Source: Acidobacteriaceae bacterium
GTDB lineage: Bacteria; Acidobacteriota; Terriglobia; Terriglobales; Acidobacteriaceae
DNA: 64,000 bases
Reading direction: 5' to 3'
Assembly (NCBI GenBank): GCA_003170825.1
Contig: PMYL01000008.1
Coordinates: 46,669 to 110,668 of the forward strand
Made by a program: the position numbers and the translations under genes. Positions 9,377 to 52,443 of the stretch are shown here, one piece after another. The notes beneath the pieces were generated by a model. The model had not been told where the DNA came from. It made no database searches and saw nothing but the letters and a program-made list of their open reading frames with translations. Each line of letters opens with the position of its first letter. The stretch's first letter is position 1.

Positions 9377-9384
9377 GGGCGAAC

Positions 9385-9548: not shown

Positions 9549-9713
9549 CGCCGGTTTACTGCTTGGGTTGTGGGGGTTCGTGGTTCTCCAGGTCTCAGAA
9601 TCCAGAACCGGGGTACCCGGATTTGAGATTTGGGTCGCCCGGCACTTGCTGGATACACCGAATTCCATTATCATGATCGTGTCGGCTTTCGAGCAGCGGG
9701 AAGGGCGGACGTG

Positions 9714-10136: not shown

Positions 10137-10146
10137 CGGATGTCCC

Positions 10147-10818: not shown

Positions 10819-10830
10819 GACTTGGGATTT
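10796..10830. repeat. Palindromic repeat over a gene end
   Basis: GTGCCCCAGGTCTCGC followed by TTGAGACTTGGG gives an imperfect stem-loop of the same family as 8630-8665. It supplies the last codons and stop of the upstream gene. Confidence 0.55.
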
Positions 10831-10901
10831 GATCTCCCCCGGTCACTGACCACTGAAAATTCCCTTGTTCGCCCTATAATCCATCAAAAGGGGAGGTCAT
10901 C

Positions 10902-11369
10902 TTGAAAACGATTCGACACAAATGCCTCAGCGCCTTCGCTCTTGCTCTCTTGGCGCTGCTTTCCGTTGCCGCAGCCCGCGCGCAGCAACTCTCGCCGAAA
11001 CTTCAGAACGCCATCGGGCACTGGCAGATCGTCAACAGCGACGGCACACCCGGAGGCCAGGCGGAAACCTACCTGGTGGACGGCAAACTCTTTGGCCGCG
11101 TCACGCAGGCGCGCCCCGGCCGCACTCCGCGCGATGTGTGCGACAAGTGTTCCGGCGAGTACAAGAACCAGCTCATTCTGGGCATGGTCTTCCTACGCAA
11201 CTTCCATGCGGACGGAGACGATTGGGTGGACGGAACTGTGGTGGACCCGGAGAATGGGAAGCAATACAAGGGCAAGATCTGGGCCGTCGGGAAGGACAAC
11301 CTCCATATGCACGGCTATATCGGCATCTCATTGCTGGGGCGGACCGAGAGCTGGGTAAGGATTCCCTGA
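10902..11369 (+). CDS. DUF2147-family secreted protein
   Basis: 155 residues; AGGGGAGGT-type ribosome site just upstream; signal peptide ending near ARAQQ. The core (IGHWQIVNSDGTPGG, then GMVFLRNFHADGD, VVDPENGKQYKGKI, LHMHGYIGISLLGRTESWVR) fits DUF2147 well: a small periplasmic beta-barrel-like domain. Function unknown. Monocistronic, ahead of a tandem CTGATCCC repeat at 11389-11416. Confidence 0.85.
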   Translation: MKTIRHKCLSAFALALLALLSVAAARAQQLSPKLQNAIGHWQIVNSDGTPGGQAETYLVDGKLFGRVTQARPGRTPRDVCDKCSGEYKNQLILGMVFLRNFHADGDDWVDGTVVDPENGKQYKGKIWAVGKDNLHMHGYIGISLLGRTESWVRIP

Positions 11370-11415
11370 AATTGAATGATATCGGTTCTCTGATCCCTGA
11401 TCCCTGATCTCTGTC

Positions 11416-12045
11416 TCACTGCACATCCACTTTGTGGAAGCCCAGGCCATAGAGCAGGGCGGTGACGCTGGTGCGGGCGTTCTGGCGCGCTTTGTCGAGA
11501 ATGCCGTCGTCGAGCGCGGCCTGGGCAATCTGCTGCTCGGCCGTCAGGCGCACTTCGGATTCCAGGTTCGGATCGGTGGCGACCAGCAGGCCGGTCGTCC
11601 GGGAATAAACTCGCGTGCGTCCGTTATCGATGCGGGTCGTGAGAATCTGCGGCGCGGGCAGCCGAACCTGAACGGCTTCGCCCCTCACGGTAACGTCGCC
11701 CGACTTGAGCTGGCCCAGATCAACGCCGGCAATCACTTCTCCGTGGGCCACCAGAAGGAGCTTGTCGCCCACCAGAAAGTCGGGCAGGTAAGCGTTCTGG
11801 CGTTCTCCCTCCACGATCTTGTCCAGCGAATAAACCACCGTCTCCAGGCGCGATAGTTGATGTATCTTCTCCACGACCGAAGGGGAGGAAACGTCGATGC
11901 TGGTGGTGCGGCCGGTCAGGTAACCGGCGAAACGGCTCCACAACCCGGCGTGCGCGACAAGAGCAAAACCCGAGAGCAGCAGAAAACAGAGCACGATGCC
12001 AATGGCGAGCGCGCCGATCGAGATGCTAAGACGGCCTAAACGCAT
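11416..12045 (-). CDS. DUF4230-family membrane-anchored protein
   Basis: 209 residues: one N-terminal transmembrane helix (about 8-32) and a soluble domain with SRLETVVYSLDKIVEGER and LLLVAHGEVIAGVDL, the DUF4230 pattern. Helices at the C-terminus contain two Ala/Arg-rich stretches. Function unknown. Divergent from ispH. Confidence 0.8.
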   Translation of the reverse strand: MRLGRLSISIGALAIGIVLCFLLLSGFALVAHAGLWSRFAGYLTGRTTSIDVSSPSVVEKIHQLSRLETVVYSLDKIVEGERQNAYLPDFLVGDKLLLVAHGEVIAGVDLGQLKSGDVTVRGEAVQVRLPAPQILTTRIDNGRTRVYSRTTGLLVATDPNLESEVRLTAEQQIAQAALDDGILDKARQNARTSVTALLYGLGFHKVDVQ

Positions 12046-12161
12046 GGGTCTGAAACCTCGCCGACTACCTTACGAATCGTCTACTTGGATGCAGCGCCGA
12101 AGCTTCGCGTCTTCGTTTTTCTTTCCTGCCGCCTGGATGCGGCGATTGGTATACTGGCAGT

Positions 12162-38405: not shown

Positions 38406-38637
38406 TTGACGAAGCGATAAGTGTTCCCACGGTTAGTGATCGAACAGCCGTACACGAGGTTTCAGACTTGGGCAGGGCGAAGAACAAGAGGATAGTATTG
38501 CTGCTCGGCAAGGAAGTTGCGATAGGCAAGCAGACGTGTATCTGTGCGTCGAGAGGCAGGAGCGTTCGCCGGGTGGCGGAAGATCGAACCGCAGGAGTTA
38601 GAGCGTTTCTGTCGTTTTTTCGGCATTGCTGGCGGCG
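38406..38637 (+). repeat. Imperfect direct repeat, copy 1, before the B2-like gene
   Basis: About 232 bases resembling 39998-40230, including near-identical blocks such as GGGCGAAGAAC, GCAGGAGCGTTCGC, GGTGGAAGATCGAAC-like and AGCAGGAGTTAGAGCG. Small indels shift the reading frame between copies, which argues against a conserved protein. It fills most of the 346-base gap before the B2-like gene. Confidence 0.65.
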
Positions 38638-38686
38638 GGGAACCTACGTCGAGCGCACTATAAGGCAATCAGCGAGCTTCGAAGAA

Positions 38687-39052
38687 ATGTTGTTGTGCAT
38701 GTCCCCTTTGGCTGCCGATACCTGTCACCTGGCAGAGAAGATGCCAGACGGCTGGATCGCCAGGACTGGTGAATACTGCGCCTATTTCTTCCCGAGGATG
38801 TGGCGGAGACGATGTCTGTTCCGGAGCCTGCTTGTCTTGGATTGGGCGCGCCGGTCCGGAATAAGTCCTACCCTGAACGTGGGCATGCAGCTCGGCCCGG
38901 ATCGTGACCAGGGGCACTGCTGGCTTTCAATTGGGGATAGACCATTCTGCGAATCGGCAGGCTGGCCGAGGCAGTACGGCATTCTGTTTCACCGCGGCAA
39001 TGATGTGCAGTACTGGACCAGCTTAATCCCCGATGCGCAAGACAGCGTGTAA
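38687..39052 (+). CDS. B2-like transglutaminase-fold leader peptidase
   Basis: 121 residues from ATG 38687 (GAAGAA just before; the frame stays open upstream through the repeat, so the start is uncertain). The sequence RRRCLFRSLLVLDWARRSGI, then QLGPDRDQGHCWLSIGDRPF, matches lasso-peptide B2 proteins with the Cys-His-Asp triad in C-L-x-R-S, G-H-C-W and G-D-R-P. B2 proteins remove leader peptides delivered by a B1/PqqD-like protein. Such a B1-like gene and a precursor lie immediately downstream. Confidence 0.75.
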   Translation: MLLCMSPLAADTCHLAEKMPDGWIARTGEYCAYFFPRMWRRRCLFRSLLVLDWARRSGISPTLNVGMQLGPDRDQGHCWLSIGDRPFCESAGWPRQYGILFHRGNDVQYWTSLIPDAQDSV

Positions 39053-39110
39053 CGTCCCCGCTTTGCCCTCGTCATTTTCGCTTTCCTTTCGCTATCAGAG
39101 CAGCTTGCTA

Positions 39111-39233
39111 GGGTCTGTCGGGAATAGATTTCCTATTCTTTAGAATCAACATCTTGTGAATACGACGCTTTACGTAGGTTATTGATTTTAAACAGCCTAA
39201 CTTGGTAACAAGGCCAATCTCCGACAGACTACC
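39111..39233. mobile_element. Possible MITE or insertion-sequence remnant
   Basis: About 120 bp, A+T-rich, bounded by imperfect inverted ends: GGTCTGTCGGGAATAGATT on the left and AATCTCCGACAGAC on the right. No complete transposase. It lies in the 315-base gap between the B2-like and B1-like genes; the rest of that gap holds nothing recognisable. Confidence 0.4.
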
Positions 39234-39367
39234 AGGGATACGTTTTGCGCGGGCAAGGTCAGTGTGAAAACAAAGCAGCAAACCCGGCATACGTGATGGA
39301 CATCACAGACGCGCCATCCCGCCCGGACACAACCTCATGTCTGTGTCGTGGTTTATTGGGGGTCATT

Positions 39368-39715
39368 ATGGAAACAACGCTGGCCAAAACGGGAATTCCG
39401 GGAGAGGACATTCCCGCCTTTGACAACGCCCACAACCACGCGAAATCACAGGTTAGCGCGAATGTTACTTGGAAGAACCTGGGAAATAGCCTGGTTCTGC
39501 TGAACTTGGTGGATTCAACCTATTACGTCTTGAACGAGACCGCGTCGTCGTTCTTCCGAGGGGTACTTGACGGCAGAACAGACCAGCAGATCGCCGAGAG
39601 ACTCGTTGAGGAATACGAGTGCTCTATTGTTCAAGCCTTTGCCGACGTTGAAGAAACACGTGATTATCTGACAAAAGAAGGTGTGCTCAAGGGCGCAGAA
39701 CAGACGCTGCCTTAG
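39368..39715 (+). CDS. PqqD-like RiPP recognition protein (B1-like)
   Basis: 115 residues from ATG 39368 behind GGGGG; longer in-frame starts at 39245 and 39296 lack a ribosome site. The sequence VTWKNLGNSLVLLNLVDSTY, Y-V-L-N-E-T-A, then FFRGVLDGRTDQQIAERLVE is the PqqD winged-helix fold: a beta-hairpin followed by helices that bind leader peptides. It directly precedes the precursor-like peptide by 60 bases. Confidence 0.85.
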   Translation: METTLAKTGIPGEDIPAFDNAHNHAKSQVSANVTWKNLGNSLVLLNLVDSTYYVLNETASSFFRGVLDGRTDQQIAERLVEEYECSIVQAFADVEETRDYLTKEGVLKGAEQTLP

Positions 39716-39775
39716 GCGGGCATTGTCCGCAAGAGCGTGACTAAGTCGATTAGCCAATTTGGAGGGAAGTGAACA

Positions 39776-39955
39776 ATGGAAAACGAAATCAAGTCAATGG
39801 AAAATGAAAACAACGATGTTGTGCTGAAGAGGAAAGCTTACGTGAAGCCCACAGTGGTCAAGCACGCGGCCGCTACACAGGTAGTGGGCTCGGCCGGCGG
39901 TTGTAACTCCTATTCTGCAACGGGCTGCTTGGTCGCTAACCAGTACTACTACTAA
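39776..39955 (+). CDS. Candidate RiPP precursor peptide (59 residues)
   Basis: ATG 39776 preceded by GGAGGGAAG. The leader (residues 1-about 40) is acidic at the start (MENEIKSMENEN) and contains Y-V-K-P (residues 21-24), the Y-x-x-P element by which B1/PqqD-like domains recognise lasso-type leaders. The C-terminal core, GGCNSYSATGCLVANQYYY, has two cysteines six residues apart and ends in three tyrosines. Too short for routine gene calls. Flanked by B1-like and B2-like genes, a kinase and radical SAM enzymes. Product structure unknown. Confidence 0.8.
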   Translation: MENEIKSMENENNDVVLKRKAYVKPTVVKHAAATQVVGSAGGCNSYSATGCLVANQYYY

Positions 39956-39997
39956 GACAGCAGTCGGGCGGAGCCGGGCTGCGGCGTGCACGAACGA

Positions 39998-40230
39998 TTG
40001 ACGAGGTGGCAAGCGTTCCCCTAGTAAGTGTCTTACAGCTTGTACACGGGCGCTACAGCCTTGGGCCGGGCGAAGAACCAGAAGATGTGCTTGCCGCTCA
40101 GCAAGAAAGGTGCGATCGGCAAGCGGAGGTGTGTCTATACATTGAGAAGCAGGAGCGTTCGCAAGCTGGTGGAAGATCGAACAGCAGGAGTTAGAGCGGT
40201 TCTGTCGTTCTTTCGGCGTTGCTGGCGACG
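39998..40230 (+). repeat. Imperfect direct repeat, copy 2, before the kinase gene
   Basis: Second copy of the element at 38406-38637. It starts 43 bases after the precursor stop and ends 168 bases before the kinase ATG. Each copy is therefore in the untranslated region upstream of a tailoring gene. The rest of the 443-base gap shows no gene with a ribosome site. Confidence 0.65.
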
Positions 40231-40398
40231 CGCGGCCTCTCCGGGCTGCGGCGCGTCGTCGCTTCTCAGAGCGTACAGAACTCCAATCCTGCGAGTTTCA
40301 AGTGAAGGCGCCGCCATGTATAAGGTCAAAGGAGTTTTCGCGTGATTCGTTGAATGGTGGGGTATTCGGATCGATCCTCGTTCGGAAAGAGAGAAACA

Positions 40399-41601
40399 AT
40401 GTTACCAATTCCTGAAAGTGCCTGCGATCCGGTTGGCCTATGGCTCAAGGCCAGGCCGGACGGTGGGCAGGAGGGATATTGGCATTCAATGCGCTTCACA
40501 TTCGCCGGGGCGCCGGTCTTGGTGAGCTCCAAATCCGCGGATGTGATTTCCTTTCTTCGGCGTCAAATCAGAGCGTATTACCCGGATAACGCTTCAGTGG
40601 CCGATCAGCGAAAACAATGCCGAGTTGAGATAAACGTGATCGACCGCAGGCAGGATCAGCAGATCATTATGGCGATTGGAGAGGGGGCGTCGATGAAGCA
40701 GGGGCTGAGTTTGCCTCCTCCATGCGAGACGATTTTCTCCGATCAGTTCGTGCACATGCGGTGGGACGGAGTCGAAACCTTTTGGCGACCCTTTGACCTG
40801 TTGGCGTCAGTGAGGTTTTCAACCACAACCGATGTGCGCCTGCTGGTTGCCACGCAGGCCGCCCGTCGTAGCAAGCTAGCTGCGCGCAAGGGCCGGTTGC
40901 GCGCCAAAGTGATCAAGGCGACTCTACCTTCGGGCCCGGTGCAGTTCAAACTCAACACGCTTGACGGGCGGTATTTTCCCTTGGAGGAGATTGCCGATTT
41001 GGTGAGGGTGATGACCGTGCGGGCTCAGGGGCACTTTTGCCTGCACGCGGCTACATTAGCCTTACGCGACCGGGGCGTACTCCTCATGGGCCCTAGCGGT
41101 TGCGGCAAAACAACAACTGCTTTGTCGTTGTTGCGCGGTGGCTACGAACTGCTCGGCGATGAGCATTCTGTGCTGAATGCAAGTGAGGAGGGCATTCAAG
41201 TGACCGGGTTTAAAAGTGCGCCACGGGTCGTGGGGAAAGCGCCAAAAACCCTCGTAGAGTTGGAGCTGACTTTGCAATCCACCAGCAAAAGCAAGAATAG
41301 AATTGCGCTTCCGAAGTCGACACCCTTGAGGCAGAACCCATGGTTGCGGCCGGCTCTGATGCTTTTCCTGCAGATTGGGCCAGGTGTTAGCGAACATGTG
41401 GTAAGCCCGCTGTCAATGGAGGAAGCGTTCGTCCGAGTCACAGGCCAGGTGCTGGATCCTACGAATGTTTTCCGAAAGGCGGAGCAGACCCAGGCAATCA
41501 TCAGGTTAATCGAGCAGTGCCGGGCCTATCAACTGGTTCTGGGCAAGAACCTGGCGTCCCTGCCGGAGCTTGTTAGTAGCCTCATGGAGTCTGCCCTATG
41601 A
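40399..41601 (+). CDS. HPr-kinase-like protein of a RiPP cluster
   Basis: 400 residues from ATG 40399 (AAAGAGAG upstream; an in-frame ATG at 40354 has no site). P-loop GPSGCGKTTTALSLL near residue 230, with GHFCLHAATLALRDRGVLL before it and ELLGDEHSVLN after it: the HprK C-terminal kinase fold. Related kinases phosphorylate lasso peptides of the paeninodin type. The N-terminal 200 residues are unlike HprK. Overlaps the next gene by four bases (ATGA). Confidence 0.8.
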   Translation: MLPIPESACDPVGLWLKARPDGGQEGYWHSMRFTFAGAPVLVSSKSADVISFLRRQIRAYYPDNASVADQRKQCRVEINVIDRRQDQQIIMAIGEGASMKQGLSLPPPCETIFSDQFVHMRWDGVETFWRPFDLLASVRFSTTTDVRLLVATQAARRSKLAARKGRLRAKVIKATLPSGPVQFKLNTLDGRYFPLEEIADLVRVMTVRAQGHFCLHAATLALRDRGVLLMGPSGCGKTTTALSLLRGGYELLGDEHSVLNASEEGIQVTGFKSAPRVVGKAPKTLVELELTLQSTSKSKNRIALPKSTPLRQNPWLRPALMLFLQIGPGVSEHVVSPLSMEEAFVRVTGQVLDPTNVFRKAEQTQAIIRLIEQCRAYQLVLGKNLASLPELVSSLMESAL

Positions 41602-43052
41602 GATTGGAATTGGCCAAAGCGTGCCTGGAGGATGCGCTCGAGGCAACGCGCAAAGCGGGCGTGGTGTTGCTGACGGAAGAGGAGTCGCCGGAAGCAGATT
41701 TCCTGCTGATCATGAGCATGGCCGATGTTAGCGAGGCGGTATGGCAGACTGCGCGCAATGTGCTGATCCATCGTTATCCATGGTTAGCCCTTGAACCTTC
41801 TTTTGTACGGCCTGTACCAGATTCCGCTCTGGTCAGTTGGCAGGGCAACGCTTGGGCGTGCCTGCGCCGCGGGATAAAACTTGTGATTCGCGAGGCCGAG
41901 TCGAATCCGCATCTTCTGAAGCGATTTTTGACGATACCAGGAGTGATCCCGGACGTAATCGAGGAGTTGCAAGATTGTGGCCAAGGTGCTCTAGCCTTGG
42001 AAATGGCGAATCTGGCCGGTCACAGTTCTGCGAGTCCTCTCACGGGGAGGGAGATCCTCATGGCCCCCACGTATCGGTGCAATCTGACCTGCAGCTACTG
42101 TTATGCAAAGGGTTTTTCCAAGGGTTTTCCGGCAGACATGTCACTGGAGGATTTGACGATTGCCCTCTCCTGGGCAGCGGCACAGGGCGTTGACTGCATT
42201 TCGCTTTGTGGTGGTGAGCCCACCACCTACTCGCATTTCCCGCAGCTTTTGCAAATGGCGAAAAGCCGTGGGATGTCCGTGCGCCTAACTAGCAACTGCC
42301 TGTATCCCGTTAGCCTACAAGAATATATCGTGACACCGGCGATCCGCGAACTGGTGGCGCATTACGACCAGGAACGAATGGAAGCGTCTCAATCTGCCGC
42401 TGAGGTTTTTGAGAAGAATCTGCAGGCCGCCCAAGCGGGGGGGGTGCAGATGATGATTCGATACACTTTGACGGAACAAAGCGGTCCCGCAGAGTGGGGC
42501 GCGATAATTGACTTGGCCCATCGGCTTTCGATCCAGCAGATTAATTATGGCCTGGCCTTCAGGGGAGCAGAAGGCGCGAATGCTTACTTCAAGAGTCGGG
42601 ACGCAGTCGGGGCCGTCGGCGGGCGACTGGAAGACCTACTAACCGGGTTCTACAGCGATGCTGCGAACAGCGGGCTCCGTTTGCATCTGAGCAAGCCATT
42701 CCCGCTGTGCGCCCTGAGGCCTGAATCCCTGCGGCGGATCTTTTCCAATGGAACTATCCGCTCGGCATGCGCGGTATTTCGCGATGGCTTCTCGCGCAAT
42801 TTGACGATTAATCCGGATCTAAGTACCTTCCCGTGCAACGGAATTGCTGTACGCGGTCCTAAGATAACGGAATTCTCAAGCTTCGCAGACGCTGGCCGGC
42901 ATAACACCCAGCTCATCCGCGACCTCATGTTGCGGCCATATGCCGAGGAATGCACGCGTTGTGCGTTATGGTATCGCGGCTTCTGTCAAGGAGCTTGTCT
43001 GGCGGAACACTTCTGGATGTCGCGTGAGGAGAAGAAGGGCCAGGAAGCGTAG
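41598..43052 (+). CDS. Radical SAM/SPASM peptide-modifying enzyme 1
   Basis: 484 residues. An unusual N-terminal domain of about 150 residues precedes the cluster motif CNLTCSYC (Cys 161, 165, 168), then ISLCGGEPTTYSHFPQL. The C-terminal region carries extra cysteines (FPCNG, CTRCALWYRGFCQGACL) of a SPASM/twitch type that bind auxiliary Fe-S clusters. Start overlaps the kinase stop. Reaction on the precursor unknown. Confidence 0.85.
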   Translation: MRLELAKACLEDALEATRKAGVVLLTEEESPEADFLLIMSMADVSEAVWQTARNVLIHRYPWLALEPSFVRPVPDSALVSWQGNAWACLRRGIKLVIREAESNPHLLKRFLTIPGVIPDVIEELQDCGQGALALEMANLAGHSSASPLTGREILMAPTYRCNLTCSYCYAKGFSKGFPADMSLEDLTIALSWAAAQGVDCISLCGGEPTTYSHFPQLLQMAKSRGMSVRLTSNCLYPVSLQEYIVTPAIRELVAHYDQERMEASQSAAEVFEKNLQAAQAGGVQMMIRYTLTEQSGPAEWGAIIDLAHRLSIQQINYGLAFRGAEGANAYFKSRDAVGAVGGRLEDLLTGFYSDAANSGLRLHLSKPFPLCALRPESLRRIFSNGTIRSACAVFRDGFSRNLTINPDLSTFPCNGIAVRGPKITEFSSFADAGRHNTQLIRDLMLRPYAEECTRCALWYRGFCQGACLAEHFWMSREEKKGQEA

Positions 43053-43059
43053 AGGTAAC

Positions 43060-43260
43060 ATGGGCGAAAAGCGGCGTTTGACAATTATGTTGTCCAGAGG
43101 TTTGGGGATATCCAGCGATGCGGTGCATTCGCACGGGCCGGTGCCCGTTCTGTGCAAATACTTCGCGGCTGCGCCAGTGCAAACTGCGTTTGTGCATGGA
43201 GAAGATGCCGCCGCAAACGGTGGTCGAAACGGTAATGGCATCCTTGGAAGTGTCAGTTAG
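43060..43260 (+). CDS. Small open frame between radical SAM genes
   Basis: 66 codons, ATG 43060 with GAGG five bases upstream, filling the gap between two radical SAM genes. The C-terminus is Gly/Asn-rich (NGGRNGNGILGSVS), precursor-like in composition. A competing Cys-rich frame from 43118 overlaps it. No homology recognised; it may be a second precursor or decayed sequence. Confidence 0.35.
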   Translation: MGEKRRLTIMLSRGLGISSDAVHSHGPVPVLCKYFAAAPVQTAFVHGEDAAANGGRNGNGILGSVS

Positions 43261-43278
43261 TCTTCAGGAGGAGGCAAA

Positions 43279-44514
43279 ATGTCTAACCCTCAATCTGCGG
43301 CTGTGGTCAGCAGCCCCGACGGACGAAATGAAGAGGCCGCTCTGTCGCCGAAGCTCTATCAGCCCACTACTTGGAACCTGGCTTTTGTTCAGGATTGCAA
43401 CTTGCGTTGCAGATACTGCGTTACCGGATATGGCCGTGTAGGCCATAGCTCCAAGTTCATGCAGCCGGAGGTTTGGAGGCCGCTTTGTGACCTGATCCTT
43501 AGCATGAGTGCCGGCCTTAAAACAGTCAGCATGGATTTCGGAACTGGCGAGACGTTTCTCCATTTCGACGAAACCATGCAGTTCATGGACTATCTGCGCG
43601 ACCGATCGGACGGCACGGGAGTGAAAATTGAAGCGCAAATCACCACGAATGGGACGCTGGCGACGGTTGAACAATTAAAAACATGCCTGGAAAAGAAGAT
43701 ATCCCTGTCTTTTAGTATTGACGGACCAGCCGCCACACACAACTCCTTCAGAAGATTCTCCGATGGAAAACCGACGCATCGTATCGCCTTGAAGAATTTC
43801 CGGCGCTACAGGGCCATGGTCAGCAGCGTGGAGGATGCCCCGGAGTGCACAGTGTCTAGCGTAGTTGCGGGTGACGCCCGCTTGCGGGATGTTGCCCGGT
43901 ACTGGCGGAAGCGGGGGGTGAAGCAATATAAGGCAATCCCCACTGAAAAAAGCAGGCACCTGGGTTGTTTCCAACAGCAGGAGTTGCAAGTTCTGCGCAG
44001 CCGGTATCTCGAGGATCTTGAGGAGATTGCGACCGCGGAAGTGTCGCGTTTGCAGGGAGGCGAACTCTTGAAGAACTTCGAGGGGCCGGTAGGAATCCTC
44101 AGCGCGTGGATACACTTGAAGAGAGCGGCGCCCTGCCGATCTTGCGGTGCGGGGTACTCTGTGATTTGTGTTGACGCGGAGGGAAAGCTCTTTCCATGCC
44201 AAGGGTTTGTCGGCTTCGCTGAACGAAGCATCGGAGATGTCCGCGCCGGCGTGCTTCCCGCCAAACTCGCGGAATTCCGTGCCGCTAAATCGCAGGTTGA
44301 GACCCAGTGCAATGGTTGTTGGGAGCGTTTTCTCTGCGATGGCGGATGTTGTGCCAGTGATCCGAAGAATGGTATTGTCTTCGACACAAAATATGGGTGC
44401 GAATTCGCCAAGTCGCACGCGGAGATCGCCCTGAATAGCTACCAAATCTGGCGCGGGCATGTGAAGGATGAAGGGGAGGACAAAGAAGCAAAAGCAATCG
44501 GATCTAGGGACTGA
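43279..44514 (+). CDS. Radical SAM/SPASM peptide-modifying enzyme 2
   Basis: 411 residues behind a strong GGAGGAGG site. Cluster motif CNLRCRYC (Cys 40, 44, 47); the fourth-strand G-G-E is replaced by MDFGTGETFLHF. TTNGTLATVEQ and SFSIDGPAATHN resemble anaerobic sulfatase-maturase/thioether-type enzymes. The SPASM region is complete: CRSCGAGYSVICVDAEG, FPCQGF, CNGCWERFLCDGGCC, and a late KYGCEF. Confidence 0.88.
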   Translation: MSNPQSAAVVSSPDGRNEEAALSPKLYQPTTWNLAFVQDCNLRCRYCVTGYGRVGHSSKFMQPEVWRPLCDLILSMSAGLKTVSMDFGTGETFLHFDETMQFMDYLRDRSDGTGVKIEAQITTNGTLATVEQLKTCLEKKISLSFSIDGPAATHNSFRRFSDGKPTHRIALKNFRRYRAMVSSVEDAPECTVSSVVAGDARLRDVARYWRKRGVKQYKAIPTEKSRHLGCFQQQELQVLRSRYLEDLEEIATAEVSRLQGGELLKNFEGPVGILSAWIHLKRAAPCRSCGAGYSVICVDAEGKLFPCQGFVGFAERSIGDVRAGVLPAKLAEFRAAKSQVETQCNGCWERFLCDGGCCASDPKNGIVFDTKYGCEFAKSHAEIALNSYQIWRGHVKDEGEDKEAKAIGSRD

Positions 44515-44575
44515 AAGAAGTGGTCGCGATAGAAAACCACGTGACTCAATCAGTCTTGGCTGAGGTCCGGCGCAG

Positions 44576-44731
44576 ATGTTTGAGCGTTTGACCGAGTGTT
44601 ACCTTATTTTTTTGCAGGCGCTTCTGGTGGAGTATCTGTCGACCGTCATCGTCTTTCTGGCTCAAGAGTCGCATTGGCGTGAACTACCAAACGCCGTATC
44701 TCCCGCGCCTTTCGAGAAGGAATCGTTCTGA
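44576..44731 (+). CDS. Small open frame with a hydrophobic helix
   Basis: 51 codons from ATG 44576; GAGG lies eleven bases upstream. A single hydrophobic stretch (CYLIFLQALLVEYLSTVIVF) could span a membrane. Lies in the 380-base gap between radical SAM genes 2 and 3. No homology recognised; may be a relic. Confidence 0.25.
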   Translation: MFERLTECYLIFLQALLVEYLSTVIVFLAQESHWRELPNAVSPAPFEKESF

Positions 44732-44755
44732 AGAACGTTGGATATCAAAAGGAAG

Positions 44756-44851
44756 ATGGCGGACCTTGTTGTCGAACTGAACGAGGGCAAAGTCGTTGAC
44801 CGTCAGAGTATTGTGAAGAGGGATCTGTCAATATGTGTTAGCAGTACGTAG
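44756..44851 (+). CDS. Very small open frame, possible second precursor
   Basis: 31 codons from ATG 44756, directly after AAGGAAG. Charged N-terminal part (MADLVVELNEGKVVDRQ) and a short DLSICVSST end. Precursor-like in size only; no repeat of the Y-x-x-P element. Listed because it sits 43 bases before radical SAM gene 3. Confidence 0.25.
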   Translation: MADLVVELNEGKVVDRQSIVKRDLSICVSST

Positions 44852-44894
44852 GCCGCCAGTTTTTTTGACGTTTTTGTCGCAGTAGGAGAAAACA

Positions 44895-45914
44895 ATGAAC
44901 TTGATCATTACCAACACGTGCAATCGAGCCTGTCCGTACTGCTTCGCCAGATCAAGAGTTAATCTTTCTGACACGCAGACTGGCCCGACGACTCAACATA
45001 TCTCGCTGGACAATTATGAAAAGTATTTGCGTTTTCTTGAAAGTAGTAAGATTTCATTGCTGAAACTTTTAGGCGGCGAGCCTACTCTTCATCCTGAGTT
45101 CCTTGAAATCGTCAGCCGGGCTCACCAGCGCGGCTTCGAAACGCTGGTGTTCACAAACGGACTGTGGCCACGTGGAATTCAGGATGCGATTCGATCAGTT
45201 CCAACAGCGGAATGGAAACTCAAATTCTTATTCAACGTCAACGAACCGAATCTTCAGACGACGGCGCAATTGGCACATGCGAAGGAAAGCATGAGGATTG
45301 CCGGGCTACAGGGCAGCTGTGGCTTCAATATTTATCGTGAGGAGTTTGACCTTCAGTTTATTCCTGATCTCATCGACGAAACCGGACTTGATAGAGGATT
45401 GCGCCTGGGGCTGGCGTCCCCGATCGTTGGAACCGTAAACTCGTTCCTTGACGGCAAATCCTTTAAGGCCATCGGCATGCGGCTGGTCGAGCAGTTGAGT
45501 AAGCTAGAAAAGCGAAATGTGCTCGGCTCGTTTGACTGCGGCTTTCCGTTGTGTATGTTCGCGGAAGAGAGCCTTGGTAAGCTAGTCCTTAACTCCCGCG
45601 GATTCCAATCGGTTTGTAGCTATCCAATTGATGTAGGGACGGATTTGACGGCGTGGCCCTGCTTCCCGCTGAGCGACTGCGAGAATGTTCGCATCCTGAA
45701 TTTTCAGAACGAAGCGGAGCTTCGGGCCCACTATACGAGCAGACTGTCCGGAATCCGCAGGATGGGCATCTACGAAGAGTGCCTGACATGCAAGTTCATT
45801 GAACGTGGCCAGTGCTGTGGTGGATGTGTGGCACGGACCATAAAAGACTGGGCTGCGAAGGGCGATGCGGATATCATCGGAAAGCTCGGTTGGACTGCGT
45901 CGCGCGATGCGTAA
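44895..45914 (+). CDS. Radical SAM peptide-modifying enzyme 3
   Basis: 339 residues with AGGAG six to seven bases before ATG. Cluster motif CNRACPYC right at the N-terminus (Cys 9, 13, 16), then LLKLLGGEPTLHPEFLEIV. C-terminal cysteines (CGFPLCMF, WPCFPLSDC, CLTCKFIERGQCCGGC) suggest a SPASM-like auxiliary cluster domain. Last gene of the plus-strand island operon, convergent with the exporter operon. Confidence 0.87.
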   Translation: MNLIITNTCNRACPYCFARSRVNLSDTQTGPTTQHISLDNYEKYLRFLESSKISLLKLLGGEPTLHPEFLEIVSRAHQRGFETLVFTNGLWPRGIQDAIRSVPTAEWKLKFLFNVNEPNLQTTAQLAHAKESMRIAGLQGSCGFNIYREEFDLQFIPDLIDETGLDRGLRLGLASPIVGTVNSFLDGKSFKAIGMRLVEQLSKLEKRNVLGSFDCGFPLCMFAEESLGKLVLNSRGFQSVCSYPIDVGTDLTAWPCFPLSDCENVRILNFQNEAELRAHYTSRLSGIRRMGIYEECLTCKFIERGQCCGGCVARTIKDWAAKGDADIIGKLGWTASRDA

Positions 45915-46067
45915 ATCATGCCTTTGCCGGGCATGCCCTATAAGGCATATTGGACTTTGAAGTCTGGCTGCAAGGCGGAAGAGTCGAAGCTACGAACGGC
46001 GGAGCGGTCGGACCTGTTTATGAAATACGCTCTGTCCAATTGGACCTAAATAGGTTACGTCGTGTTC

Positions 46068-47321
46068 TCATGTGTCATTCCTGAGGGACGCGAGGACATC
46101 CAACCGTCGGACTTTTGCTGCGGGAATGACGCCAGCGATCAGTCCTGCCAAGCCGCAAACAAGAATCGGGTAGAGAAATCCCTTTAGACCATAATAAGGA
46201 AGCAATTGATTGACCTCATTGATTTTGGATTGCAATAGCCGGCCAACATATGGAGCAAGTAACACAGACAACGCAACTCCGATTAACGCTCCCGAAATGC
46301 CGAGTAGAAAGCTTTCCGATAAGACTGCTGCCAGAATTTCAGAGTGCCTGGCGCCCATAGATATGCGAATTGCGAACTCTCTGCTTCTTCGAGCAGTATT
46401 CGTCAACATGACATTCATTACGCCTATGAAGGCGATCCCGATGCAGAATAGCGCTTCCACTTGGCCATATGCCATGAAGTTTGCGACAATGCTCCTGCTC
46501 TTTTGAATCTTAAACTCAGATGAAGAGAGAAAAAAGGTATCCGGGCCGCGGCAGACTTCCAAGGAGGAGCGCAAGCCGCTAACGACTTCGTCCATCTTTT
46601 CGAGATTAGTCCATGCAACCAAAATATCTCCTATCGTGCCGGACGGAAGCCATAGAACATTTGCACTTTCATATGGAACAGTGATGCGAGCCTTAAAGAA
46701 ATCATCCGCTCCCGGAGGATCTTGAGTCACACCCTTTACTTGAAAGGGTCGACCGTCGATGAAAATGGTCGGCTCGTCCTCTATTGTCACTGCTAATGCC
46801 TCAGCCGCAGACTTGGTGAGCAAGCATTCCCACACAAGCCCTTGGTGTCCGGCGTCTGAGAATCCGCGACCTCTTATCGGAAGGAATAGCGGTTCTCTGC
46901 TGAGTTCAACGGTTACCCCGTCAACCGCCATCACTCGGTTAATGCTGCGAAAAGTGACCGGTTCGGTTGCCTGGAACATGGGCGCTACCAGTCTTACATC
47001 TTTCAAATGATCTTTGACAAACGTGAAGTCCTCAGGCGTAAAGTCCGGGCGGAGACGCGTCTCCAGAAGGTGGCTATCCTGTCTTACACCAGGAGAAGCG
47101 ATGACCCAATCCCCCATGAGATGTTCCATATCCTGCCAAAGACGTATGCGCGCACCTTCGCCAAGGAAGAACGTCAGCGACAACGCAAAAGACCCGACAG
47201 CCATCGTCATCAACGTGAGAGAAAGCTGGAATCTGTTGCTCCACATTCCTTGGCCGGTCAACGACAATAGACAGACCAGACGCGCTGCGATTCTGTCCCC
47301 TGTTGCTTTCGGAGATGCCAT
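46068..47321 (-). CDS. MacB/FtsX-type ABC exporter permease
   Basis: About 417 residues from ATG 47321 (AGGA ten bases upstream); ATG 47363, overlapping the ATPase stop, is also possible. One N-terminal helix (FQLSLTLMTMAVGSFALSLT), a large periplasmic domain, and three C-terminal helices in FtsX order, including NVMLTNTARRSREFAIRISM. MacB-type transporters drive export from the periplasm with an adaptor and TolC partner, both encoded in this operon. Confidence 0.88.
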   Translation of the reverse strand: MASPKATGDRIAARLVCLLSLTGQGMWSNRFQLSLTLMTMAVGSFALSLTFFLGEGARIRLWQDMEHLMGDWVIASPGVRQDSHLLETRLRPDFTPEDFTFVKDHLKDVRLVAPMFQATEPVTFRSINRVMAVDGVTVELSREPLFLPIRGRGFSDAGHQGLVWECLLTKSAAEALAVTIEDEPTIFIDGRPFQVKGVTQDPPGADDFFKARITVPYESANVLWLPSGTIGDILVAWTNLEKMDEVVSGLRSSLEVCRGPDTFFLSSSEFKIQKSRSIVANFMAYGQVEALFCIGIAFIGVMNVMLTNTARRSREFAIRISMGARHSEILAAVLSESFLLGISGALIGVALSVLLAPYVGRLLQSKINEVNQLLPYYGLKGFLYPILVCGLAGLIAGVIPAAKVRRLDVLASLRNDT

Positions 47322-47352
47322 TAACCGGCGTCCTGCTCTCGGCGAGTAATCT

Positions 47353-48045
47353 CTATACTTCATCAAGGATACCGTCGCGAATGCTGACCACCCTATCAGC
47401 GCGTTCAGCCAATAGGGGATTGTGTGAGACGACAACCAGTGTCCGTTGTTCCTTAACAACCCCAAATAACAGATCACTAATTGTCGACCCGGTTTCGGAA
47501 TCCAGAGTTCCGGTCGGTTCGTCTGCAAGGATCAGGACAGGTTCAGTCACCAGCGCCCGCGCGATAGCACATCGTATCAACTCTCCTCCGCTTAACTGAT
47601 TAGGATAGCTATCGAGGCGATCTAAAAGACCTACCTGAGCCAGAGCACGCTTCGCCAGTTTTTTCTGTTGCCGCGGCCATATGCCCCTGTGAGATACAGG
47701 AACGCATACATTCTGAAGCGCAGTAAGATTCTGGATGAGTTTGCCATCCTGAAACACAATTCCGATACTCTGTCTAATTCCGACATCCCACCACCTGTTG
47801 ACGGCGTAAACACTGGATCCGTTAAACAAATACTCGCCGCTGTCAATCGGCGTAAGAAGCGCTAGAACATGCACCAAGGTTGATTTGCCTGACCCGGAGG
47901 GTCCAACGATCACAGTGGACGTTCCCGCGCGAATATCCAGATCGATGTGACGCAACACATCGATACGTGTGCCGCCCGCTCGCCAGCTCTTGTGGACTCC
48001 GCGCAGACTGATAAACGGCTGGGTATCGTTCGAGCCTCCGCTCAC
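47353..48045 (-). CDS. MacB/LolD-type ABC exporter ATPase
   Basis: 230 residues from GTG 48045, overlapping the adaptor stop (GTGA) with AGGGGGGAC upstream; a longer frame from 48099 lacks support. Walker A GPSGSGKSTL, signature LSGGELIRCAIARAL, Walker B VLILADEPTGTLDSETG. Partner of the FtsX-type permease. Confidence 0.93.
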   Translation of the reverse strand: MSGGSNDTQPFISLRGVHKSWRAGGTRIDVLRHIDLDIRAGTSTVIVGPSGSGKSTLVHVLALLTPIDSGEYLFNGSSVYAVNRWWDVGIRQSIGIVFQDGKLIQNLTALQNVCVPVSHRGIWPRQQKKLAKRALAQVGLLDRLDSYPNQLSGGELIRCAIARALVTEPVLILADEPTGTLDSETGSTISDLLFGVVKEQRTLVVVSHNPLLAERADRVVSIRDGILDEV

Positions 48046-49022
48046 TTTGTCCCCCCTGGTTGAACTCGGACAGTAACTTGCATCCCCGGCCGAAGCCAAG
48101 GGACTGTCTTCTCCAACTTGACGATGGCCTTGAATTTCGGAGGGCCGGAAACCGGCGGCACCAGGCTTCCCGCCTCTATTGATTCGACAAACCCGCGGAC
48201 AGTCTGACTACGCCCGAAATCTAAAGCGACAATCACTGATTGCCCCGTACGCACATATGTGAGTTGGTGCTGCAGTATCTCTAGTTCGACGATGAAAGCA
48301 CTGTCGTCCCACACCTCGCAGATTACGTCTTCGGGTGATAGCAATGCTGGATCGACTGCCCGTTCCACGACAATCCCGCCGAACGGCGCTCTTTGCATAT
48401 TTTGCCCCAAGCGGAGCTTGGTCGCCTCCAGTTCTCGCTCCAGCAAATCTGCCGCTTCCCGTTGGGCACGCAACCGAGCCTGCAAATGCGCAAGTCGCAT
48501 AGTAGTGGTCTTGATCTTATCCTCAAGCTCGCTTAACTTTTCATTCAGGGGCACCATCAAGTTGTCGATCGAGTAATTAGATATAGTGTCCGTTGCCTTG
48601 CGCATGGTGTTGATTTTTGCATTCTGCTTATCGAGGTCGGACTGTTGAAGTGTCAACTCCAAGGCGCACTCATCAACTTCATCGCGAAGAACTTCGTAAT
48701 CGTTCCTCTTGCCGATCAGGTCCATATACGTTGTCAACAATGCAGGGTTATCTATTCGGGCGAGAAGCTGGCCGACTTTAACTCGCTCTCCTTTTGATAC
48801 CAGAATCTCGGTCACATGCTCGCCGGAGTGCAGTTTTAAGACCATCTTCTTTTTGGGAAAGACAAACCCGCGAGCCTCGATTAATTCGGTATTGGCGGCA
48901 GCATTGGGCAGGGATCCCGCAGGATTCTGCGCCACGAGTTGGGGTGATAAAACTAAGATGCCGATTAAAGCGAAATAGCCAGCCAGCCAAGCGGAGAGCG
49001 TTCGCATTCTCTTCAGGGTCAA
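48042..49022 (-). CDS. HlyD/MacA-type adaptor of the RiPP exporter
   Basis: 326 residues from TTG 49022, which overlaps the upstream TGA and has GGAGGGG at good spacing; the ATG at 49007 has none. Signal/anchor helix (LSAWLAGYFALIGILVL), lipoyl-like halves (HSGEHVTEILVSKGERVKVG and MQRAPFGGIVVERAVDP) around a coiled coil, and a C-terminal barrel. Confidence 0.88.
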   Translation of the reverse strand: MTLKRMRTLSAWLAGYFALIGILVLSPQLVAQNPAGSLPNAAANTELIEARGFVFPKKKMVLKLHSGEHVTEILVSKGERVKVGQLLARIDNPALLTTYMDLIGKRNDYEVLRDEVDECALELTLQQSDLDKQNAKINTMRKATDTISNYSIDNLMVPLNEKLSELEDKIKTTTMRLAHLQARLRAQREAADLLERELEATKLRLGQNMQRAPFGGIVVERAVDPALLSPEDVICEVWDDSAFIVELEILQHQLTYVRTGQSVIVALDFGRSQTVRGFVESIEAGSLVPPVSGPPKFKAIVKLEKTVPWLRPGMQVTVRVQPGGTK

Positions 49023-50242
49023 GATTCCCCTCCAGTCATTCTCGCAATTTGAGCTGAGAGCCTTGCCAGCGGGCGAAACAGAAGACTCACAACCATACCT
49101 ACCGCCAACCGCATCACAGGCCCGGTCGACCGCCCCCCAATAACGATTGTAGCAATCATCCATCGCTCTGGCGGACAATCAGGAAGATATCGCGGCGGAG
49201 GGTCGGCAAGGAGAAAGAACCGGATCGCCCGAAGCCAAAGAATGTACAGGAGTCCCCTGCGCGTTCGCTGATGAAGGGAGAACTTCTCGCTGGAGATTGT
49301 GCGGGGATCTGTCACCAGACAGAGAAACCGATAGTTCCACGCAGCCGAATTGGGCGGAAACTCTGGAAATGAAGGGTCGATATTCTTTCGGCAAAAGCAG
49401 CTAGCTAAAGCGATAAGATTGGTCGCATGCAGACGCTTGGACTCCTGCAATACCCACTCGAAATCCATCTGATTCCGAAAGCGCGAAACCAAGGCCGCCA
49501 AATCCAAGAACCAAACGAAGCGCGAGTAGTAGTGGTACCAAGACAAATGCAAAACCAGCAGAACCAAATGCCATGCAGGGTCTGGAGAAGCAAAACAATC
49601 GTCTTCAGCCGGGTTGGAACCATAGTCGTAGCGATACAGCAGATCGAGCATCGGATCTGTCGCTTCCCTGGTCGGATACCGAATTTCGATTTCCCACCCG
49701 TCAAATGTGGCGAGAACACTGCCGGGAGCGCGCATTCGACGAACAATACCTTCATGATCGCTGTCCTCGTCAACCTTGGCGCCCAGCGCATCCAGGAGAT
49801 TGAAGACGTCTGCCCGAGAGCGGGCGCACAAATCCAGGTCCGCGAAAGCTCTAATACCTGGATCGGCGTATGCTTGTTGCGCGAGGACAGGGCCCTTAAA
49901 GTTAACAATCGGAATGTCGTGCTTTCGGGCTGTGGCGAGGATTTTTCGGCACGTGTTTCTGGCTTGTTCGCAGTAGAGCATATTGCTGAAATATCGCGCC
50001 TTGGCCAGTTCGCTTAACTCACATGCGGGCATAAGGTTCGCTACCGCGAGCGCGCCGAGCGCACCGCCTAGGCCCTGGCGGTCGATATATTCCCAAAGTA
50101 AGTCAGCATCAGCACCTTCAGGAATATCCCACGCCCGCTGATGCAGCCAAGATGGCATTATAGCGACAAGCGCATCAAGTTCGATACGACTAAGCGGACG
50201 CAGGCTTAAGGTCTCCGATGTATGGCCTACGTTTCCGTCCAT
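49019..50242 (-). CDS. Nucleotidyltransferase-family protein of RiPP clusters
   Basis: 407 residues from ATG 50242 with GGGAGGC six bases upstream (open frame to 50326). IPIVNFKGPVLAQQAYADPG, then AFADLDLCARSRAD, is the pattern of the NTP_transf_5 family, in which the D-x-D motif coordinates metal. These proteins recur beside HprK-like kinases in lasso-type clusters, so it may add a nucleotide or phosphate group to the peptide. Role inferred. Confidence 0.78.
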   Translation of the reverse strand: MDGNVGHTSETLSLRPLSRIELDALVAIMPSWLHQRAWDIPEGADADLLWEYIDRQGLGGALGALAVANLMPACELSELAKARYFSNMLYCEQARNTCRKILATARKHDIPIVNFKGPVLAQQAYADPGIRAFADLDLCARSRADVFNLLDALGAKVDEDSDHEGIVRRMRAPGSVLATFDGWEIEIRYPTREATDPMLDLLYRYDYGSNPAEDDCFASPDPAWHLVLLVLHLSWYHYYSRFVWFLDLAALVSRFRNQMDFEWVLQESKRLHATNLIALASCFCRKNIDPSFPEFPPNSAAWNYRFLCLVTDPRTISSEKFSLHQRTRRGLLYILWLRAIRFFLLADPPPRYLPDCPPERWMIATIVIGGRSTGPVMRLAVGMVVSLLFRPLARLSAQIARMTGGES

Positions 50243-50337
50243 AAATTGCCTCCCGGCAGCCAAGCAAGACTGACATCCACAGATAAAGAACCCATTAGGC
50301 GATGCTCCCGACCCTGTAAGCACCATCCTCCCTTGCC

Positions 50338-51852
50338 CTACTTAGCTTTGCTACTGCTGGCGAATGGATTATGGCCTAACCGCGCCAGCACCATGTTGTC
50401 CAGCCCAGAAACAACATCCAGCTGGGAGGTCCAAGCGTATTCAGCCGCTGCATTAGTGACGTTCATTTGTGCTCGCGTCAACTCGATCTCTGCTTCACCG
50501 GCGCGTTCTTTAGAAGCAAGCATGTCGATGGTATCTGCTAACCCAGCTGTCACGAGATATTGATTAGCTTCATGTTGTCGGGCGACCTGATTGCAATAAT
50601 CATCCGCCGCTTTCCTGGCTTCGATGGACTCGGAAAGAGATGCGGAGGCATCATTCACGTTACGGTAAATCTGAACAAATAGCAGGGTGATATCCCGCTT
50701 AACTAAGTCGCGATCGATAGTGGCCTTGCTGATGTCGCGTTTTATATCACCAAAATCAATAAGGGGCATAGACACGCCCAGTTGAACTACTAAGGGCGCT
50801 TGAGTATAGCTCGAACTCAGGCTATTGCTTCCCGCGCCGAGCGCACCGGAGATTTTTGGAATACGTTTGCGGCGCTGGTCGATAATTGCCATCTCCTTCA
50901 TGAAGAGCTGGGCTTCCAGCAGCTTTGTGTCGTGACGTTTTGCCCATAACGCGTCGAAAAAGGCCTCATTAAGGTCCGTTGCAGGAGCAACTTCGTCTAT
51001 TGACGCCAGCAATTCCGGGAAGTCGCTAACTACGATGTCCTGTGCTCCGTCGATAAATAGCCGATCACCGAGGGTGCGGTTCATATCGGCAAGCCGATGA
51101 ACGGCTTCCTGGTAAAGGCGGGTGTTCATCTCGTACTGGTATTCATATTCGTAGATGCGTTCGGGTTTGATCTGGCCTGCTCGCGCCGAGACATTTGCTG
51201 TCTGCAGCGCATCCAAAGACTGGGATTTAATCACGCCGCGCAATGCGACTTCGGTTTTCAAGGCCTCTCGGTTCGCTAACAACAGAAACAGATCGTGAGT
51301 GAGTTGTTGTAGCGTCTGCTCGATTGTTTCGCGCTTAGCTTCGATTCCTGCGCGCGCCACGGCAGTTGCATCCCCAGAAAATAGCGCCTTATCCAAGTCG
51401 TAGTTGAAAAAGACGCCCCCGTTGAACTTTTGTATGTCCGAGTAATTTCCACCGAACGGCAGCTGAAAATACATCCTCGTATCCACGCGAGGCCAAATCG
51501 CGCTATGCGCTTGTTGAAGGTCAATTTGCAATTGAGCCGCATCAGCCAGTTCACTTGAGAGTTCTTTGTCGAATTGCGCGGCGCGTGCGCACGCTTCGGT
51601 GAAGGTAAAGACTGAGGTTTTGGCTGTCTCGGTTGATGGTCTGGACAGAGGAATGGCGGGCGAAAGGCTTTGTTGGAGGGTCAGGGAGGCAACATAACTC
51701 TCCACGCTCCGATGAGTTTTCTTTGAGCAACCCCCACATAAGAAGGTTGTTGCCAGAGCCAGAGCAAATACTGGACGCCAGGCTCTCGATGCTAGAGTAG
51801 TTTGCGGACGACCGTCAGCCAATCCTCGAGACGACACTAAGAAGTTCTGCAA
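50338..51852 (-). CDS. TolC-type outer-membrane lipoprotein of the RiPP exporter
   Basis: 504 residues. Signal peptide with lipobox (ALATTFLCGGC), then the two long coiled-coil repeats of outer-membrane efflux factors (for example EYEYQYEMNTRLYQEAVHRL, IEARKAADDYCNQVARQHEA). First gene of the minus-strand exporter operon, followed by nucleotidyltransferase, adaptor, ATPase and permease. Confidence 0.88.
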   Translation of the reverse strand: MQNFLVSSRGLADGRPQTTLASRAWRPVFALALATTFLCGGCSKKTHRSVESYVASLTLQQSLSPAIPLSRPSTETAKTSVFTFTEACARAAQFDKELSSELADAAQLQIDLQQAHSAIWPRVDTRMYFQLPFGGNYSDIQKFNGGVFFNYDLDKALFSGDATAVARAGIEAKRETIEQTLQQLTHDLFLLLANREALKTEVALRGVIKSQSLDALQTANVSARAGQIKPERIYEYEYQYEMNTRLYQEAVHRLADMNRTLGDRLFIDGAQDIVVSDFPELLASIDEVAPATDLNEAFFDALWAKRHDTKLLEAQLFMKEMAIIDQRRKRIPKISGALGAGSNSLSSSYTQAPLVVQLGVSMPLIDFGDIKRDISKATIDRDLVKRDITLLFVQIYRNVNDASASLSESIEARKAADDYCNQVARQHEANQYLVTAGLADTIDMLASKERAGEAEIELTRAQMNVTNAAAEYAWTSQLDVVSGLDNMVLARLGHNPFASSSKAK

Positions 51853-51940: not shown

Positions 51941-52057
51941 GGGAGACTGTGACGCATATCACGCTATCAAGTTCGCTAAATGAAACCAATCAATACGACC
52001 TTGCCCGCGAAAACGTATCCCTTGGCAAGCTGCATTGATAGCGAAAGAGAAGCGAAA

Positions 52058-52443
52058 ATGACGAAGGCAAAGCGGGGACGGTACACGTTTGAGTTCAAGC
52101 ATGGCGGCGGCGGCACGCAGCCTGGGAGTGGTTGAGCAGACCTTATCCAACTGAGTGCAGGCGCATCGTGCGAGAACGCCAGGCGCCGGCATCTCAGCGA
52201 CTAAGCGCTGCTGGTGCACATCAGCGCTGCATATGCTGAGAATCGTGGGGCCTACGGCTGGCCGCGCATCTGGCGGCAGTTGCAAGCTCAAGTCATTCAC
52301 GTGGCCAAGCAGCGTGTGCAACGGTTGATGCAGAAGCACGGCATTCGCGCCCGCGGCAGCCAGCACGCCAGTTATGAGTTCAACAAGCCGCTCAAGGAGC
52401 TCGAACAAAACTGGACTGGCGCCATGACGGAGATTGCCGCCTG
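52058..52443 (+). pseudogene. IS3-family transposase remnants (orfA and orfB pieces)
   Basis: MTKAKRGRYTFEFK from ATG 52058 and AARSLGVVEQTLSN, with a TGA where the next Trp is expected, are orfA pieces in two frames. RGAYGWPRIWRQLQAQ and KQRVQRLMQKHGIRAR (from about 52214) are the HTH segment of orfB. The DDE catalytic domain is missing. The element is dead. Confidence 0.75.

Follow-up and report, generated by a model that had tools for sequence, protein, structure and literature searches.

Between about 38 and 52 kb of a 64,000-nucleotide stretch of contig PMYL01000008.1 (the window), from an Acidobacteriaceae bacterium with a genome of 3.49 Mb, lies a gene island that is probably a complete gene cluster for a ribosomally synthesized and post-translationally modified peptide (RiPP) of an undescribed class, and not a lasso peptide cluster. 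This estimate includes the division of labor among its enzymes that we propose below. Two gene sets that face each other fill the island. The forward set encodes a peptidase of the B2 type, a PqqD protein, a precursor of 59 residues, an HprK-like kinase, and three radical S-adenosylmethionine (rSAM) enzymes, and the reverse set encodes TolC, an NTP_transf_5 protein, HlyD, an ATP-binding cassette (ABC) ATPase, and a MacB permease. Genes were assigned by Pfam and NCBIfam profile searches, and folds were compared in addition. Most likely, the island represents a new RiPP class that is composed of known enzyme families. We infer that its chemistry may comprise crosslinking or epimerization, phosphorylation, and nucleotidylation. 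A preliminary description of the window had suggested such a class, and this suggestion is supported by the recurrence of the gene set in four genomes of two phyla, without a cyclase on the cluster contigs.

The island is more than a chance assembly, as four further genomes carry this gene set. Three of these genomes (G100, with contig L006 and its extension L092; G120, with L099; and G121, with L098 and L141) belong to the phylum of a Nitrospinota metagenome-assembled genome (MAG), and one (G429, with L101 and L142) to the phylum of the window. Genes for PqqD, B2, the precursor, rSAM1, rSAM3, the kinase, and the NTP_transf_5 protein are present in all five clusters, that is, in the window and in four of four relatives. 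The hallmark of RiPP clusters, a short precursor kept beside leader-binding and modifying genes, is likewise seen in five of five. Both rSAM2 and the MacB-HlyD-TolC exporter occur in four of the five clusters (three of the four relatives), as does a McjD-like exporter, with the window as the exception. Whether all three rSAM genes recur had been posed as a check at the outset: rSAM1 and rSAM3 do so in every relative, whereas rSAM2 is missing from one of the four.

In L006/L092, whose proteins are 26 to 50% identical to those of the window, all genes have the same orientation and follow the order precursor, rSAM3, an unknown protein, kinase, rSAM1, a GT9 glycosyltransferase, rSAM2, TolC, NTP_transf_5, HlyD, ABC, MacB, a McjD-like ABC exporter, B2, and PqqD. 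The genome G121 keeps this order over two contigs. The G429 set, from another family of the window's phylum, is also spread over two contigs, the ends of which share at least 60 identical bases. In G120 the genes are rSAM3, kinase, B2, PqqD, precursor, rSAM1, the McjD-like exporter, NTP_transf_5, and a B12-binding rSAM protein; no match to rSAM2, MacB, HlyD, or TolC was found in the 36 kb examined of the 66.9-kb contig L099. The B12-binding rSAM protein (L099 15208-17397) lies directly after the NTP_transf_5 gene and possibly contributes another modification in this cluster. The unknown protein between rSAM3 and the kinase is found in three relatives (L006 3817-4641; the G121 copy on L098, 52% identity; L142 6000-6701, 28% identity). 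Its L006 copy has no Pfam match, and no counterpart was seen in the window.

These relatives came from searches with rSAM1, the island's most distinctive gene. In a very large collection of proteins, its homologs form at least 46 clusters at E 1e-10, its own included (7991 candidates sharing the most words were scored). An alignment was built from the window protein and 38 of the 46 homologous proteins, leaving out the window's own copy and seven shorter ones. A scan of named GTDB contigs returned at least 80 loci, among them one close relative, the Nitrospinota MAG contig L006 (42% identity). Among those listed loci, only L006 also matched B2, PqqD, kinase, NTP, TolC, HlyD, or precursor. Five other loci that were inspected in more detail (L007, L027, L040, L058, and L019) had rSAM matches, plus MacB in L058, and were not counted as relatives. 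One of them, L040 from an Acidobacteria MAG, has four rSAM-like genes in a row at 3602-12153, one of which encodes 922 residues. The rSAM1 alignment matched 3 of 396 genomes of the window's phylum (its own, G429, and G181) and 3 of 24 genomes of the phylum of L006 (G100, G120, and G121). G181 (L103) was excluded from the counts, as it has PqqD, rSAM3-like, and rSAM1-like genes, but precursor, kinase, and B2 were not found nearby. On a separate contig of G181 (L143 8696-10367), a B2-like gene (PF13471, 85 bits) adjoins an NTP_transf_5-like gene. A PF00733 search of four genomes gave no match on L143, where the B2-like gene is a possible further cyclase-free use of B2. A viral scan returned at least 31 loci with rSAM-level similarity only (best listed E 3e-8), and a plasmid search gave no match.

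No asparagine-synthetase cyclase lies within the island, and a whole-genome search with PF00733 bore out the preliminary description on this point. The search found three open reading frames, the nearest of which is at window 6220-7875(-), 28 to 31 kb from the island. We presume that the remaining two are QueC and MnmA, and they were set aside as candidates for a lasso cyclase. The 6220-7875(-) gene would be the natural candidate if the island were a lasso cluster with a distantly encoded cyclase working in trans and its rSAM enzymes as extra tailoring, a reading that could also draw on B1, B2, and YxxP as lasso hallmarks. We consider it highly improbable. The candidate encodes a divergent asparagine-synthetase-like protein of 551 residues that is far under known models: the lasso cyclase model, whose cut-off is 525, gives it 24.5 bits. 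It also has its own neighboring peptide, of 110 residues with KGTAGxDAQ repeats (both within window 6220-8240, -). Both parts match the congeneric genome G506. Of 41 genomes searched, two have the protein, namely the window's own and G506 (90% identity), and G506 has no rSAM1 match. Gene and island thus do not go together; the protein and the repeat peptide are possibly a separate peptide-modifying pair.

Homologous loci with a consistently adjacent cyclase had been named in advance as evidence that would overturn the new-class suggestion. The search for them left the suggestion standing. On the cluster contigs of the four relatives no PF00733 match was found, all matches lying on other contigs, and the whole assembly of G121 has just three, at 21 to 24 bits. 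Among the marks of a lasso cluster, the island has PqqD/B1, B2, and YxxP, and lacks a cyclase in the cluster. An Asp or Glu at core positions 7 to 9, under the assumed cut, is not conserved in the precursor family: it occurs in 2 of 18 precursors, as expected if no lactam ring forms.

The precursor gene (39776-39955, +; 59 residues; 16 further aligned homologs) is preceded by GGAGG. A profile search found 17 proteins, and with three more from L098, L099, and L142 there are 20 distinct precursors. The small Y-x-x-P precursor of the preliminary description is confirmed: the window's has YVKP at residues 22 to 25 (39839-39850, +), and YxxP is found in 20 of 20. Across the 17-row alignment K20, Y22, K24, P25, K29, V37, S39, C43, and Y57 are invariant. 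The C-terminal tyrosines, which turn into poly-Tyr tails in distant relatives, were absent from the earlier account. Every one of the 20 precursors has Tyr at the third position from the C-terminus and Y, F, or W as its penultimate residue, so that they end in Tyr-(Tyr/Phe/Trp)-X. The distant precursors of L142 and L099 end in NYYYYYYYYYY and QWYYYYYYYWY, respectively. Both tails are encoded by a mixture of TAT and TAC, and are therefore not accounted for by simple slippage of the DNA. A core Cys is present in 19 of 20 precursors, the exception being that of L099.

The remainder of the core sequence is highly variable among precursors. In lasso leaders a Thr stands two places ahead of the cut (PMC10885120; PMC10368454). 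If this rule holds here, the window precursor would be cut after Thr34-Gln35, giving the assumed core VVGSAGGCNSYSATGCLVANQYYY (39881-39952, +). The residues at this place, before (I/V)VGS, are TQ in 13 of 18 precursors, SL in 3, and AV in two from the Nitrospinota phylum; cleavage after an AATQ-like place is our guess. With this cut, cores are 21 to 34 residues long in most of the 18 precursors. An NCBIfam scan of six precursors, including the window's, matched no family. The precursor's protein cluster has been reported from 74 contigs, and two precursor contigs match rSAM1 contigs in size (10517 and 65161).

Three different rSAM enzymes, two or three with SPASM-type C-termini, had been proposed from the window. 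The three enzymes stand, with Radical_SAM (PF04055) scores of 49.8, 40.1, and 51.7 bits for rSAM1, rSAM2, and rSAM3, respectively (cut-off 29.5). Among the best 25 families listed per protein, however, only rSAM2 matched the SPASM model TIGR04085 (44.5 bits, cut-off 27), and the SPASM-type assignment of the other two is by extra cysteines and fold. In rSAM1 (41598-43052, +), a helical N-terminal domain of some 142 residues, which the fold list barely probes, precedes the radical SAM domain and SPASM-type C-terminus. The protein carries CxxxCxxC plus seven further invariant Cys, and its fold resembles SuiB, anSME, and SkfB. rSAM3 (44895-45914, +), likewise with a SPASM-type C-terminus, has a fold like anSME and SuiB; its model comprises seven rows, of which three come from loci outside the counted relatives, and the row ends of L027 and L040 were guessed. 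The two enzymes share the fold of SuiB, SkfB, anSME, and ChlB, but are only 11 to 18% identical to them over the aligned parts, and the helical N-terminal domain of rSAM1 is a further point of difference.

The radical SAM/SPASM protein rSAM2 (43279-44514, +) is thioether-maturase-like. Its closest solved chain is 5wgg (CteB), a thioether-forming enzyme (E 2e-36). Like the ranthipeptide/SCIFF and nif11 maturases (CteB and PapB), to which it is nearest at 133 to 145 bits, it is found with precursors that nearly always have a core Cys. The island differs from these systems in its lasso-type B1, its B2 peptidase, and its two further rSAM enzymes, and rSAM2 falls far under the curated cut-offs of 340 to 519, reaching none of them (TIGR03974, 133.5 of 425 bits; PapB, 139.7 of 340; nif11, 145.2 of 518.7). 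The sole cluster without an rSAM2 match (L099) is also the sole one with a precursor lacking Cys.

From this contrast we propose how the work may be divided. The PqqD protein would bind YxxP and thereby offer the precursor to the rSAM proteins. rSAM2 is assigned to the Cys, given that the cluster without it has a Cys-less precursor, and would form a thioether from this residue. rSAM1 and rSAM3 are assigned to the aromatic end because both stay where Cys and rSAM2 are missing; their target would be the invariant aromatic C-terminus, and crosslinks between Tyr/Trp side chains would be the simplest modification. The kinase and NTP_transf_5 protein would act on a hydroxyl group, which may be that of Tyr. 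B2 would remove the leader, perhaps after AA(T/S)(Q/L), and the MacB-HlyD-TolC exporter would carry the product out. A bolder form of this scheme is possible, and we hold it only tentatively: a tyrosine-tailed RiPP class in at least two phyla, in which rSAM1 and rSAM3 crosslink Tyr/Trp along the 3- to 10-residue aromatic end into a ladder, rSAM2 makes the Cys thioether, the kinase and nucleotidyltransferase decorate phenols, and B1/B2 is purely a module for leader recognition and cleavage.

The aromatic end also invites a quite different interpretation, in which the peptide is the scaffold for a small redox cofactor that is cut from its tyrosine end. Pyrroloquinoline quinone (PQQ) and mycofactocin are derived from Tyr-containing precursors in this manner, and the island shares with such systems a PqqD-type partner, SPASM-type rSAM enzymes, and an invariant C-terminal Tyr. 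Against this, the core is variable, two precursors seem to share one contig in two cases (P0057/P0058 and P0060/P0061, judged from contig sizes), and an exporter is present in four of five clusters. Furthermore, rSAM1 scores just 32 bits against the mycofactocin model (cut-off 265) and 27.3 against that of PqqE (cut-off 381). We therefore regard a cofactor scaffold as rather unlikely.

The leader-processing pair described from the window, a B2-like transglutaminase-fold peptidase and a PqqD/B1-like recognition protein, is borne out by profiles. The B2 gene (38687-39052, +) starts at the ATG at 38687, although its frame is open from 38264 and the start is uncertain. Its product matches Transglut_core3 (PF13471) with 40.6 bits (cut-off 26) and lasso_biosyn_B2 (NF033537) with 33.1, barely reaching the cut-off of 33; the relatives score 28.3 to 35.3 against the latter, and one of three is at the cut-off. 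Its Cys and His align with the residues of two relatives, in an alignment for which the N-terminal parts of the window B2 and PqqD frames were trimmed beforehand. The PqqD protein (39368-39715, +) scores 40.4 bits against PF05402 (cut-off 23.4) and 40.7 against the lasso PqqD model of NCBIfam, short of its cut-off of 70. Its closest solved chain is the B1 protein TfuB1 (E 8e-4).

The HprK-like kinase (40354-41601, +) recurs in four of four relatives and is related by profile to the HprK family as described, but it is under every curated cut-off (Hpr_kinase_C, 27.5 bits of 33.3; HprK_rel_A, 52.1 of 200). As the kinase and PqqD fall under the NCBIfam HprK and lasso cut-offs, we treat them as relatives of those families and not as members. 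The kinase His and P-loop Lys are conserved; of the His-Lys-Asp-Asp motif, the window kinase has the His, the P-loop Lys, and an Asp. The claimed NTP_transf_5 protein (49019-50326, -) is placed by PF14907 (95.1 bits), has a DxD aligned with two relatives, and recurs in all four.

Similar enzymes are found in paeninodin and pseudomycoidin lasso clusters (PadeK, ThcoK, PsmK, and PsmN), which also have discrete B1 and B2 proteins, YxxP, and, for tailoring, a kinase of the HprK-like kind together with a nucleotidyltransferase-like protein (PMC9266682). The paeninodin kinase modifies the C-terminal Ser of the precursor, and in pseudomycoidin the kinase and then the nucleotidyltransferase-like protein modify one Ser (PMC9266682). 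The island is unlike these clusters in having no adjacent cyclase, three rSAM enzymes, an aromatic C-terminus in place of Ser, and no conserved ring acid. Thus, the gene families of the "paeninodin accessory set" named in the preliminary description are present, but the label is loose, given the sub-cut-off kinase and the absence of Ser ends among 20 precursors.

That no precursor ends in Ser, unlike in paeninodin, and that the kinase has diverged from every curated HprK family could mean that the kinase and NTP_transf_5 protein act in self-protection or control and not on the peptide, leaving the rSAM enzymes as the sole modifiers. This we think unlikely, as both genes are present in five of five clusters and the pseudomycoidin homologs modify the peptide one after the other (PMC9266682). 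A GT9 gene, seen in G100 and G121 only, would fit a scheme of phosphate followed by sugar.

The dedicated MacB-HlyD-TolC exporter that had been described is upheld by matching profiles and by its presence in three of four relatives. Because the exporter genes of L006 share direction and run with the rSAM genes, we assign the exporter to the cluster. In the window it comprises a MacB/FtsX-type ABC permease (46068-47528, -, start uncertain; PF02687, 59.5 bits; PF12704, 58.3 bits; 40% identity to the L006 copy), an ABC ATPase (47353-48099, -; PF00005, 101.1 bits; 50% identity to the L006 copy), a HlyD-type membrane fusion protein (48042-49178, -; PF13437, 53 bits; also in L006, L141, and L142), and a TolC-like outer membrane efflux protein (50338-51852, -; PF02321 (OEP), 64.4 bits; also in L006, L098, and L142).

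Several points weigh against a new RiPP class with this division of labor. The kinase, PqqD, and rSAM proteins are all under curated family cut-offs, and in the fold list of rSAM1, Viperin and BlsE, which act on non-peptide substrates, rank just behind the peptide maturases. The split of labor between rSAM2 and rSAM1/rSAM3 is drawn from one contrasting cluster. The window B2 covers just positions 39 to 110 of 117 of the Transglut_core3 profile (two-thirds), and its catalytic acid is unclear and unaligned with two relatives. At the place of the Asp-Asp pair of three relatives, the window kinase reads Asp-Glu, and the Nitrospinota precursors are without the assumed Thr two places ahead of the cut. 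Finally, the relatives are mostly MAGs, and the rSAM1 proteins of L099 and L101 are just 25 to 27% identical.

It could also be that this particular copy was recently acquired, is partly decayed, and makes nothing. The GC (guanine plus cytosine) content is low, at 0.51 to 0.57 across 38 to 52 kb compared with 0.64 and 0.585 in the flanking 2-kb windows, and the rSAM1 alignment search matched just the bacterium's own among 100 genomes of the same family (none of the 99 others) and none of 23 further genomes of the same genus. Inverted repeats lie near both ends: a 68-nucleotide arm just inside the left end (39046-39113, +) is 88% complementary to one just outside the TolC gene (52020-52087, +). 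No third copy was found across the whole genome. The reading frames of the repeats may resemble the start of an IS3-type transposase, and the repeat is perhaps a trace of island mobility. In addition, a 175-nucleotide direct repeat (83%) links window 38463-38637, by the B2 start, with 40056-40230, between precursor and kinase; as the former copy sits in the frame running into B2, the latter may be what is left of a duplication of that gene start. Nevertheless, we find decay improbable, because none of the island's reading frames is interrupted, the intact precursor gene is preceded by a clear ribosome-binding site, and its protein cluster is known from those 74 contigs. In a comparison meant to find the empty island site, G506 matched only window 1-11370.

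A further dip in GC content (0.56 to 0.59) lies at 8 to 14 kb of the window. There, at 8824-9376 (+), a frame ending at 9376 matches a phage antitoxin family (phrog_4692 and phrog_30665), and the frame ahead of it looks to us like a BrnT toxin, which suggests a BrnT-BrnA pair in this low-GC stretch.

Among other known systems, SynChlorMet and GeoRSP cassettes pair PqqD-like with rSAM/SPASM proteins, and SynChlorMet adds an HprK-like protein. The island is unlike either of them, with 13 of 125 bits for ScmC, 24.2 of 400 for ScmF, and 25.7 of 400 for the GeoRSP rSAM protein. The RRE-Finder report, in its main-text parts, describes about 300 lasso-type discrete RiPP recognition elements (RREs) that co-occur with rSAM enzymes, and peptidase and cyclase genes accompany only about half of all discrete RREs of the lasso type (PMC7470986). 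The pairing of an RRE with rSAM enzymes is thus already known in general; a class in which B2, kinase, and nucleotidyltransferase go with Tyr-ended precursors is not named in these main-text parts (PMC7470986). A literature search of titles and abstracts found no published class that combines B2, kinase, and NTP_transf_5 with two or three rSAM enzymes, Tyr-ended precursors, and no cyclase, nor ribosomal peptides ending in up to ten consecutive Tyr beside radical enzymes and a kinase.

If our interpretation of the island as a new RiPP class is true, the B1/B2 pair of lasso clusters would be a free module, able to serve radical chemistry in place of ring closure. Three rSAM enzymes would then have a natural, patterned family of substrates, in which the modified residues could be guessed from conservation. 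As for the product, roles as an antibiotic, in metal binding, or as a redox material are conceivable.

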